Shown one piece after another: positions 12,730 through 18,960 of a DNA stretch of 20,999 nucleotides. The DNA lies in IMG/VR virus record IMGVR_UViG_3300023184_007219, positions 1-20,999 of that record; one strand, given 5' to 3'. The notes below the pieces were generated by a model. It made no database searches and was not told the origin of the DNA. It saw only the letters and a program-made list of their open reading frames with translations. The position numbers and the translations under genes were made by a program. This stretch comes from a virus. Each line of letters begins with the position of its first letter. Position 1 is the first letter of the stretch.

Positions 12730-13082
12730 TGTTTTTGCTCACGATATCCCACAGTTTCTCGTTCGATATCATTGTGATCAAACTCTGCCCAATATAGCTC
12801 AAATGCAACGCAATCTTCAAGAGCTTCAAATTGATGGTATTCGCCAGGAGCAACTTTTGTATATTGTCCTGCTGTTAGTATAGTTTCATCGATTAAATCG
12901 TAGTTACCTTTCCACACACGGATAATCATTCGGCCAGATTCAACAAAGAATCCATTCCATTTAAACTTGTGCTTATGCTTTGAGCAAGTACCACCTGCTG
13001 CTGCTTCAATGCGATGAAATTCCAATACACCATTGGCTTCAAGCAGTTCGGTTTGTCCCCATACTTTTCCAAATTTACTCAT
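12726..13082 (-). CDS. Stand-alone cupin, mannose-6-phosphate isomerase-like
   Basis: 118 residues from MSKFGKVWGQTELL. An upstream in-frame ATG at 13112 would add an unlikely basic stretch inside the previous gene, while 13082 overlaps its stop (TAATG). The two cupin motifs are visible: CSKHKHKFKWNGFFVESG (33-50, with His36, His38 and Glu48) and AGQYTKVAPGEYHQFEA (71-87, with His83), together giving a 3-His/1-Glu metal site. The end, HNDIERETVGYR, mirrors the 'E-D-D-I-x-R...Y-G-R' tail of type II phosphomannose isomerases. It is therefore a relative of the cupin half of the preceding protein. It might isomerise or bind a sugar-phosphate; enzyme activity is inferred. Confidence 0.78.
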   Translation of the reverse strand: MSKFGKVWGQTELLEANGVLEFHRIEAAAGGTCSKHKHKFKWNGFFVESGRMIIRVWKGNYDLIDETILTAGQYTKVAPGEYHQFEALEDCVAFELYWAEFDHNDIERETVGYREQKQ

Positions 13083-13846
13083 TATTTTCTTTCTATATCG
13101 TCTTCGGCACAATTGTCGCCGTATTGTATTTCAATTAATTTCAATGGCAACAAGGTTTCGTTGGCCAATTGATGCCAATCATTGTTGGCTATCCATAAGT
13201 TTTGATGCTCGGTAAATTTGCCAGTTAGCTCGGTATCAGTTTTCCTATTGATGCCGTATACTGTGGCTTCGCCTTCTGTGACAAACCAAAATTCAGCACG
13301 ATTAATATGTCGTTGCATGCTTAGTCGCTGTCCAGGCTCTACCGTAAGTTCTTTAAGTTTGACTCTGGGTGCAGCTTCATGCAGCACACGGTAATAACCC
13401 CACGGACGTAGTGTTTTTGGGGCGCGCCATTCCTGCAGGATCCAGCTACTGGAATTCATTTTGTTGTCACCACCTACGCCGAACGCAAATTCTAGATTAT
13501 GATCAACAATGCTCATTTCGGGGATATTTTCTCTTGTTCTATCACCACCATTTGCAAAGATAATGTTGTCAGTTGGATAGCTTTGCCTAGTCATCCTAAT
13601 AGCATCACATGCTGAATTATCTGAATCGTCGAAGCCGATAACAAAATCTACGCCTTGGATACTTTTTATAATAGCAAGGCGTTCGTGTAAGGGCATGAAT
13701 GCTCGTCCTTTTTTTCGAACCAGCCATTCATCGCTGTTTACAGCCACTACAAGTATATCACCAAGCTGTTTTGCGGCTTGTATGTAGGCAATATGCCCAC
13801 TGTGAATGGGATCATACCCACCCGAAATTAGAATAATTTTCTTCAT
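13082..13846 (-). CDS. HIGH-type nucleotidyltransferase fused to type II phosphomannose-isomerase cupin
   Basis: 254 residues, two domains. Residues 1-136 are a nucleotidyltransferase of the RfaE/TagD type: GGYDPIHSGH (9-18) is the H-x-G-H site, and NKMNSSSWI (128-136) corresponds to the second 'K-x-S-S-T' motif. Residues 145-252 are the cupin half of a type II mannose-6-phosphate isomerase: RPWGYYRVL, PGQRLSMQRHINRAEFWFVTEG (171-192), NNDWHQLAN and LIEIQYGDNCAEDDIER. In bacteria that cupin usually sits behind a GDP-mannose pyrophosphorylase domain (ManC), so this partner is unusual. The likely role is to make and activate a sugar-phosphate, perhaps a heptose or mannose derivative (inference). 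No ribosome site precedes the ATG; a palindrome abuts it at 13848-13876. Confidence 0.85.
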   Translation of the reverse strand: MKKIILISGGYDPIHSGHIAYIQAAKQLGDILVVAVNSDEWLVRKKGRAFMPLHERLAIIKSIQGVDFVIGFDDSDNSACDAIRMTRQSYPTDNIIFANGGDRTRENIPEMSIVDHNLEFAFGVGGDNKMNSSSWILQEWRAPKTLRPWGYYRVLHEAAPRVKLKELTVEPGQRLSMQRHINRAEFWFVTEGEATVYGINRKTDTELTGKFTEHQNLWIANNDWHQLANETLLPLKLIEIQYGDNCAEDDIERK

Positions 13847-17840: not shown

Positions 17841-18797
17841 TTACGACTTCTGCCTTGCACGGATCAATGCCAGGATGTCTTCAGCTTTTTGACTGGAAAC
17901 TTTTGCTGGTACTTGCACCGGCGCATCTTCCTCAACATCGGCTTCTACTGGTGCTGGCGCTGCCTTTGTTGCTGGTGCTGCATTAGCTGTAGCTGCTGGC
18001 GCTGCTGGCGCTGCTGCACCGGCTGGGCGATAATACTGTGCCCAACGTTCAGCATCGTAACTTTGTCCTTCTACACTTGCTTCAAACATCTCTTTGATGA
18101 CTTTGAGTTCAGCAGCACCTGGCTTGTTTGGCAAGAAGTCTGCCAATGTGAACAGGCCATGTGCAGCAATAGCTGCTTGCTCTGCTTCTGTCAACGCAGA
18201 CTCTTTACGTGCCCACTTGCTGGTGTTGTAGTCTGCGTAGCCACCTTTAGTGGTCTTGGTCATACGGAAGTCAAGACCATGTGTATAATCGGTTGGCAGT
18301 TCTTCCAGCTCAGGATCCATCAACGCACCTTTAAGTATGGTGAAGATCTGAGGACCGATAATGAAACGCCGAATTGGATTATCTGGTGTCTTGTCATCTG
18401 CAAGAGGATTCTCACGAACAAAGCCTTGGAAAATATAACTGCGTTTTTTCCAATATTTACGACCCATATCTTCGAGACTCTTGTCTTTAAACCATGGACG
18501 GACTTCGGTTAGGATCGGGCAAGCTTCGCCCCACATCTCCATGCATGGAACTTGCACCTGTACTTGTTTGCTGTCGGTTTCGCCTTTAACACCGGCAAAT
18601 GGCAGTTTAATTACTGCGCGTTCTGCCCAAAAGAATGTGTTTTTTGCATCGCCATCTGGAAGGAAGCGGACTGTTACGCTTGCACCTTCCTCAATGTTCC
18701 AATGTGGGTAAATGGCTTGATCGCCACCGCCGGTTGAAGAACCGATTTTTGTATCTGCTGCCTGTAAACGTGCGCGAATTTCTGCTAATGAGGCCAT
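17841..18797 (-). CDS. 32: Single-stranded DNA-binding protein, T4 gp32-like
   Basis: 318 residues (T4 gp32 has 301). The start MASLAEIRARL at 18797 has a strong AAGGAGA at 18811-18805 with a 7-base spacer; an in-frame ATG at 18893 is in the leader and is rejected. SVTVRFLPDGD (40-50), TFFWAERAVIKLPFAG (54-69) and MGRKYWKKRSYIFQGFV (111-127) match the gp32 core that wraps single-stranded DNA. Only two cysteines are present (Cys85, Cys93), against the three Cys and one His that bind zinc in T4 gp32. Residues 258-283 are an Ala-Pro tract, then a short acidic patch (EADVEED) and a basic end (ALIRARQKS), unlike the acidic end of T4. It heads an operon with uvsX and uvsY, with a leader rich in signals. 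Confidence 0.93.
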   Translation of the reverse strand: MASLAEIRARLQAADTKIGSSTGGGDQAIYPHWNIEEGASVTVRFLPDGDAKNTFFWAERAVIKLPFAGVKGETDSKQVQVQVPCMEMWGEACPILTEVRPWFKDKSLEDMGRKYWKKRSYIFQGFVRENPLADDKTPDNPIRRFIIGPQIFTILKGALMDPELEELPTDYTHGLDFRMTKTTKGGYADYNTSKWARKESALTEAEQAAIAAHGLFTLADFLPNKPGAAELKVIKEMFEASVEGQSYDAERWAQYYRPAGAAAPAAPAATANAAPATKAAPAPVEADVEEDAPVQVPAKVSSQKAEDILALIRARQKS

Positions 18798-18835
18798 AAT
18801 AATTTCTCCTTGTAATATGCCTATGTAATGCCTAA

Positions 18836-18885
18836 ACTTACTATGTAAGTATTTTGCCTTGTGTTGCTGCCTATACAACAACACA
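18836..18885 (-). promoter_or_regulatory. Two hairpins in the gene 32 mRNA leader
   Basis: Hairpin 1 (18885-18860) pairs TGTGTTGTTG with CAGCAACACA, ten pairs with one G-U, around the loop TATAGG. It begins where transcription from the promoter at 18893-18921 should start, so the RNA would carry a stem at its very 5' end. Hairpin 2 (18850-18836) pairs ACTTAC with GTAAGT around a 3-base loop. In T4, gp32 represses its own translation through a structured leader; these could play the same part, or protect the RNA end. Confidence 0.5.
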
Positions 18886-18892
18886 TGAAACA

Positions 18893-18921
18893 ATTATACA
18901 TGATTCATGTGCCCTTGTCAA
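18893..18921 (-). promoter_or_regulatory. Consensus sigma70-type promoter of the gene 32 operon
   Basis: On the minus strand, TTGACA (18921-18916) and TATAAT (18898-18893) are separated by exactly 17 bases, all twelve consensus positions matched. The expected start is near 18886, giving a leader of about 90 bases before the gene 32 ATG. A perfect host-type promoter implies early or constitutive use of the host polymerase, without a phage factor. Confidence 0.88.
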
Positions 18922-18924
18922 TGT

Positions 18925-18932
18925 TATTTATG
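18925..18932 (-). promoter_or_regulatory. Possible T4-type late promoter (CATAAATA)
   Basis: CATAAATA on the minus strand fits the NATAAATA form of T4-like late promoters and lies just upstream of the -35 box of the sigma70-type promoter. T4 gene 32 is known to be transcribed from both earlier and late promoters, so a tandem arrangement is plausible. A single 8-base match in AT-rich DNA may be chance. Confidence 0.4.
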
Positions 18933-18960
18933 CCTTAATGTTGCCTAATGTTTATTTGTA

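Follow-up and report, generated by a model that had tools for sequence, protein, structure and literature searches.

Does the leader of a gp32-like gene in an uncultured phage control that gene, as the leader of gene 32 does in T4? The question was raised by a 21-kb fragment of a phage (the window, a complete IMG/VR virus record of 20,999 bases), which carries an ssb gene for a gp32-like single-stranded DNA-binding protein (SSB) of 318 amino acids, matching PHROG 1192 (E 4.5e-65) and PHROG 224 (E 9.1e-8). Downstream of ssb follow a UvsX-like gene (16857-15787) and then a UvsY-like gene (14341-13889). Used as a single-sequence query against the PDB, the window SSB gave nothing convincing. By profile comparison it is a distant gp32 homologue, because a profile of 25 SSBs matched the T4 and RB69 gp32 structures 2a1k, 2atq, 1gpc and 8gme with E values of 1.4e-5 to 1.3e-4 (2a1k, E 1.4e-5). 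Its relatives in named phages came from 61 records, mostly of jumbo phages, each with less than 60% identity. Elsewhere in the window (13082-13846), a cytidylyltransferase-like domain is fused to the C-terminal (cupin) domain of a mannose-6-phosphate isomerase.

The features of the ssb leader, in the direction of transcription, are the following.

18942..18946, minus strand: AGGCA box 1, 5' of the promoter, in read-through RNA only
18931..18935, minus strand: AGGCA box 2, 5' of the promoter
18924..18932, minus strand: CATAAATAA, a late-promoter-like element by its sequence
18893..18921, minus strand: predicted sigma70-type promoter, TTGACA-17-TATAAT
18898..18910, minus strand: ACATGAATCATGT, read from the sequence as a perfect palindrome in the promoter spacer between -35 and -10
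18860..18885, minus strand: hairpin at the 5' end of the predicted transcript, 11 pairs, z -4.4
18868..18872, minus strand: AGGCA box 3, within the 5' hairpin
18855..18859, minus strand: AGGCA box 4, core array (its first free box)
18836..18850, minus strand: spacer hairpin ACTTAC-ATA-GTAAGT between boxes 4 and 5 (interval of 26 nt, 11 minus the hairpin)
18829..18833, minus strand: AGGCA box 5, core array
18818..18822, minus strand: AGGCA box 6, core array
18806..18810, minus strand: Shine-Dalgarno sequence (SD) AGGAG, 12 nt past box 6, in the register of a next box
17841..18797, minus strand: ssb gene

The initial annotation had described a full-consensus sigma70 promoter in this region, and the element at 18921..18893 of the minus strand indeed matches the consensus at 12 of 12 positions; an exact TTGACA-TATAAT match with a spacing of 16 to 18 occurred once in the 21-kb record and not at all in the reversed control. 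The late-promoter-like element was recovered as CATAAATAA at 18932..18924. The hairpin reported at the predicted RNA start proved strong (-14.6 kcal/mol, with none of 200 shuffles equally stable) and to have one pair more than the 10 first counted, and the second hairpin (18850..18836) is also present, though weak when taken singly (-3.3 kcal/mol, z -1.3, 26 of 200 shuffles equally stable). Downstream of the palindrome ACATGAATCATGT lies a third half-site, TTCATGT (18889-18883), and together they make a possible DNA operator, that is, a candidate repressor site.

All six AGGCA copies stand on the same strand, with spacings of 11, 13 and 11 within successive twos. Over the entire window AGGCA is not over-represented (34 found, 37.2 expected). 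The arrangement AGGCA-N6..8-AGGCA was found three times in the window (0.13 expected), a number that none of 100 shuffles reached, and 200 first-order Markov sequences of the same length never held more than three AGGCA per 134 nt. The cluster of six is thus far beyond chance; a few other 5-mers also reach six or seven copies per 134 nt elsewhere in the window. The motifs had been described as six copies in 11-base pairs, of which the number stood and the pairing held only in part, as one spacing is 13 and relatives display an even row. Since boxes 1 and 2 lie upstream of the promoter and box 3 is buried in the 5' hairpin, the core consists of three boxes, the spacer hairpin and the SD. Boxes 1 to 3 fall, on comparison with relatives, outside this conserved core, and if boxes 1 and 2 are functional, they would be so in read-through RNA. 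The free boxes start at 18859, 18833 and 18822 and the SD at 18810, which gives steps of 26 nt (11 minus the hairpin), 11 nt and 12 nt.

The leaders of related ssb genes were collected from viral contigs, using the best 80 of at least 597 confirmed loci. Together with the window, and after removal of three loci without a start codon, 78 remained; upstream sequence of 130 nt or more was available for 73 of them, giving 69 distinct leaders. Many of these 69 leaders are mutually related and do not count as independent events. In their last 110 nt we counted 181 AGGCA, compared to a mean of 5.3 and a largest value of 12 in 200 mononucleotide shuffles. Four copies were present in 2 leaders, three in 41, two in 24 and one in 2, so that 67/69 carried at least two, and the complement TGCCT was nearly absent (a single copy in each of 3/69 leaders). 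The initial annotation had proposed comparing the leaders and repeats of related phages, and near relatives do keep the array. The nearest relative among the loci listed (L002, 97% identity), which has 55 nt upstream and stands outside the 69-leader set, retains the last two boxes. On this comparison, the AGGCA array is conserved on the mRNA strand in the ssb leaders of a large clade of uncultured giant phages.

The full-consensus promoter, for its part, is peculiar to the window among the 69 leaders (1/69), and a looser promoter was found in the same zone in 45/69. TAAATA was present in 65 of 67 ssb leaders, compared to 9.7 in shuffles. In 33/69 leaders (L006, L010-L012, L015 and others) a terminator-like stem followed by a T-run was observed within 40-150 nt 5' of ssb. 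By eye, this stem overlaps the -10 region of the ssb promoter in several leaders, and therefore upstream transcripts would stop where ssb transcripts start.

The distances from box to box (n = 112) were 9-14 nt in 35 cases, 16-17 in 6, 25-30 in 44, 32-36 in 12, 51-54 in 9 and other values in 6. Hairpins of at least five pairs could be folded in 40 of the 60 distinct intervals of 12 nt or more, and once the hairpin span was removed from these 40, 10-13 nt remained in 24, 30-35 nt in 10 and other lengths in 6. Taken one by one the interval hairpins are weak (16/60 at P <=0.05 against dinucleotide shuffles), and therefore their support lies in their recurrence at one place. A scan anchored at the right end of the interval found six pairs in 27/36 intervals, compared to 1.5 in shuffles (largest of 300, 6), and five or six pairs in 35/36, three of these being a poorer, different match. 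The stems were of the types ATCTAA/TTAGAT (23), ATCTAT/ATAGAT (2) and ACTTAC/GTAAGT (the window), with one register-shifted stem and additional five-pair types. When arms were exchanged between stem types, 3.5 of 6 pairs formed on average; most hairpins probably share one stem type by descent. When 26 of the 29 distinct hairpin intervals were aligned with MAFFT, the row of the window was misplaced, and the alignment was not used for pair counts. The conserved unit reads as boxes in a row, one every 11-14 nt or so once the hairpin is looped out, with the SD taking the register that follows.

The position of the row relative to the start codon followed the same rule. The last box started 11-13 nt before the AUG in 31/69 leaders and 23-27 nt before it in 29/69. 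A canonical SD was present in 29 of the 30 leaders with the last box one step up and in 0 of the 33 with a box at the SD place; in the 6 others the box lay further up. The SD and the box thus use a common register.

Another 80 ssb loci, centred on the protein of Sinorhizobium phage Phosso and with SSBs 51-68% identical to that of the window, provided 65 further distinct leaders. AGGCA was found 78 times in their last 70 nt (2.9 in shuffles), with none in 15 leaders and one in 28. Two or more copies of GGCA or GGCT were present in 49/65, most commonly 14 nt apart (22 of 67 distances), and by eye the leaders closest to Phosso carry GGCTC words. In a subgroup with a single AGGCA (L267, L335, L301, L311 and L276), the leader word AGACCATCTT stands near the SD. 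Of the 61 named-phage records, 14 were read over the 230 nt before ssb, and 11 had no AGGCA and 3 had one. These 14 distant phages have unrelated leaders, and therefore the AGGCA design is specific to the clade.

AGGCA arrays were not confined to ssb. A simple script predicted 1,231 genes in the records of four relatives (300, 340, 210 and 172 kb), and only eight carried two or more AGGCA within the 60 nt upstream of the start: ssb in 4/4 records, a gene for a protein of about 110 amino acids in 3/4, and one other gene, labelled by eye as GIY-YIG-like (G001 near 25073-25126; L113). In one of the four genomes (G001 near 152590) we also observed an intergenic hairpin, CAGTGGCAA-GTTGCC-TTGCCACTG, the loop of which is nearly complementary to the AGGCA box. 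The protein of about 110 amino acids (L164-L243) is widespread and strongly conserved in uncultured jumbo phages, and its gene is preceded by a TATAAT-like element and the two-box leader. Fetching 80 relatives gave 61 distinct leaders, with two boxes in 48, three in 3, one in 9 and none in 1, and typically of the form AGGCAac-ttagaa-AGGCAac before the AUG. The commonest spacing was 13 nt (40/54 distances), and in all 60 leaders with a box, out of 61, the last one lay 9-13 nt before the AUG. A search of all viral contigs for the exact two-box pattern returned 61 stretches, 60 of which precede this gene (59 assigned by BLAST and one preceding its first 13 residues at a contig end) and one of which is unrelated. 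The pattern of the ssb version gave at least 80 stretches; among the 80 examined, 60 precede ssb, 2 lie at contig ends and 18 are others, which look mostly like coding sequence.

An ssb match was found in 11 of 16 records with the gene of about 110 amino acids. The ssb leader could be read in nine of these loci, one ssb lying too near the contig start and two being missed by the start filter of the script, and two of the records are near-copies; all nine ssb leaders had at least two boxes, and the paired genes one to three. A profile search for the protein of about 110 amino acids gave a match in 5 of 18 records, four of them divergent (G005, G012, G013 and G014). None of these four has AGGCA before the homologue, and the ssb leader of G005 has four boxes, which makes ssb the steadier target.

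Our preferred reading, to which we assign a probability of roughly 0.6, is that the ssb leader is a translational operator, most likely an autogenous one with SSB as the binder. The transcript would start near 18886 and fold the 5' hairpin, and AGGCA boxes about 11-13 nt apart would be exposed in single-stranded RNA, with the small hairpin looped out as a spacer and the row continuing into the SD. When SSB is in excess of the available single-stranded DNA, several monomers would occupy the boxes side by side, presumably with cooperativity, and the bound protein would cover the ribosome site and stop translation of ssb. In the gene for the protein of about 110 amino acids, where the second of two boxes replaces the SD, the same binder would bring about the shut-off. 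SSB is proposed as the reader because it is homologous to a proven autogenous repressor, gp32, and because ssb is the steadier target. Against the operator reading count the leaders with one AGGCA (2/69) and, in the more distant set, those with none in the last 70 nt (15/65), as well as the weakness of the single hairpins and their mostly common stem type. Against SSB itself stands the second gene with an array, which could mean that another protein regulates both. In addition, the binding of gp32 to single-stranded DNA is described as sequence-independent in PMC535899, and therefore the reading of a fixed AGGCA would be unusual.

The array is real and conserved, and the mechanism is likely. 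The AGGCA leader would thus be an undescribed RNA switch, probably letting SSB limit its own production, and the clade would add a conserved RNA element without an Rfam match and a widespread gene linked to how a replication protein is regulated. To a farther-reaching proposal we give somewhat less than even odds: SSB would read AGGCA boxes at fixed spacing as a sequence-specific RNA code, governing a translational regulon of two genes, with a code that drifts between clades (AGGCA, other GGCA/GGCT, GGCTC), or else the protein of about 110 amino acids would be the reader and found a new family of translational repressors. In the first case, a protein thought to ignore sequence would read a periodic code in single-stranded RNA.

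That the protein of about 110 amino acids is a new RNA-binding repressor of itself and of ssb through the boxes, as RegA is for many T4 mRNAs, seems unlikely to us. Its own leader has the tightest array, at least two boxes being present in 51/61 distinct leaders; 60/61 matches to its two-box pattern in the entire viral collection precede its gene; and tblastn against named phages, including the 14 without an ssb array, gave no match to it. Its homologues in G005, G012, G013 and G014 nevertheless lack AGGCA, despite the four boxes in the ssb leader of G005. No relative was found in Pfam or NCBIfam and only weak matches in PHROG, and the predicted fold, of middling quality (pLDDT 72, pTM 0.51), matched no solved structure in the PDB (best E 0.4). 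Against a viral library, the same fold gave six matches at E <=0.001, all of them proteins of uncultured phages without assigned function.

A little less probable again is some other reader of the boxes, whether a protein of phage or host, a small RNA or a RegB-like RNase with GGCA as its target. That two genes carry arrays would fit a factor acting in trans, and the endoribonuclease RegB of T4, whose target is GGAG, cuts short G-rich motifs at ribosome sites, as an RNase reader might. Even box spacing is, however, unnecessary for an RNase. Among the records of 11 relatives, some possibly incomplete, RegA (PF01818) was found in none, and RegB (PF10715) gave no match above the cut-off, with one weak partial match of 18.8 bits in G035; both T4 controls were positive, and we rejected RegA as the reader and regard RegB as improbable. 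A small RNA pairing to the boxes was also discarded, since their complement GTTGCCT had, in the intergenic DNA of four records, no conserved place save opposite the arrays.

A role of the boxes as translation enhancer, or as spare ribosome-binding sites of a highly expressed gene, is improbable. The last box does stand at the SD place in 33/69 ssb leaders and in 60/61 leaders of the gene for the protein of about 110 amino acids, but AGGCA is not used as an SD elsewhere in these genomes: among the 1,231 genes of the four relatives it occurred at -18..-3 in 28 and at -60..-45 in 25, compared to 146 and 5 for AGGAG, which rules it out as the ordinary SD of these phages. An enhancer would also leave unexplained why the boxes number two to four, why their effective spacing is fixed and why there is a hairpin. 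DNA sites, either a promoter operator or origin iterons, are the least credible reading, for although 2/6 window boxes lie upstream of the -35 hexamer, this upstream pair is not general in relatives, and the boxes keep to one strand (181 vs 3), are positioned by distance from the AUG and have a hairpin between them.

Among known systems, the STAXI motif (Rfam RF01728) is alike in being a repeated element near SSB genes; it consists, according to Weinberg et al. (2010; PMC2864571), of repeated pseudoknots in Enterobacteriales, whereas the window leader has no Rfam match. Covariance models of Rfam 15, run on the window and on the loci of six relatives, matched nothing close to the leader at E values up to 5. 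Our literature searches found that paper on structured RNAs near SSB genes, only T4 and RB69 work on gp32 autocontrol, and none on AGGCA in phage leaders. With the targets of T4 RegB the boxes share a short G-containing motif at the SD place, but here they are also evenly spaced away from it. T4 RegA is comparable as a small protein that competes with ribosomes for several mRNAs; its sites are A+U-rich and contain the AUG (PMC3014915), in contrast to the AGGCA boxes of this clade, in which no RegA member was found in the 11 relatives' records.

The closest comparison is the gene 32 operator of T4 and RB69. PMC535899 and PMC3014915 describe gp32 as a proven autogenous repressor and its T4 operator as a 5' pseudoknot followed by UUAAA/UAAA repeats across the ribosome site. 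Alike are the homologous SSB gene and the combination of a structured 5' part with short single-stranded repeats across the ribosome site; unlike are the AGGCA boxes at fixed spacing in place of UUAAA/UAAA, and the array on a second gene. In the T4 leader, taken from its record, TAAA occurs five times and AGGCA is absent, and the window has AGGCA boxes and no UUAAA/UAAA repeats across its ribosome site. A pseudoknot scan recovered the T4 pseudoknot at its known place (1/40 shuffles as good); in the window it reached a score of 22 (16/40 shuffles as good), and seven sampled relatives likewise gave none above chance, so that a T4-type pseudoknot was rejected for these AGGCA leaders. The ssb leader of phage PA5oct (L245, within 600-700) holds a candidate H-type pseudoknot, GTTTTGC/GCAAAAC with AACCC/GGGTT (0/40 shuffles equal), which recalls T4 gene 32; the sampled AGGCA leaders have none. 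The initial annotation was right that the leader elements differ from those of T4, and its suggestion of a separate design of the same control agrees with the gp32 homologue, the array conserved in the clade and the missing T4 elements, with the amendment that the conserved unit is a row and not pairs. Because two sequence features of the T4 operator, pseudoknot and UUAAA/UAAA, fail here, the window leader is on this evidence a variant of gene 32 control and not a member of the T4-type operator. PMC535899 and PMC3014915 treat it as an open question by what means gp32 selects its own message, and whether those relatives of T4 that lack the pseudoknot retain this ability. With a code that is short and countable, dozens of natural variants and a second target, the proposed operator of this clade makes the question of mRNA choice directly testable.
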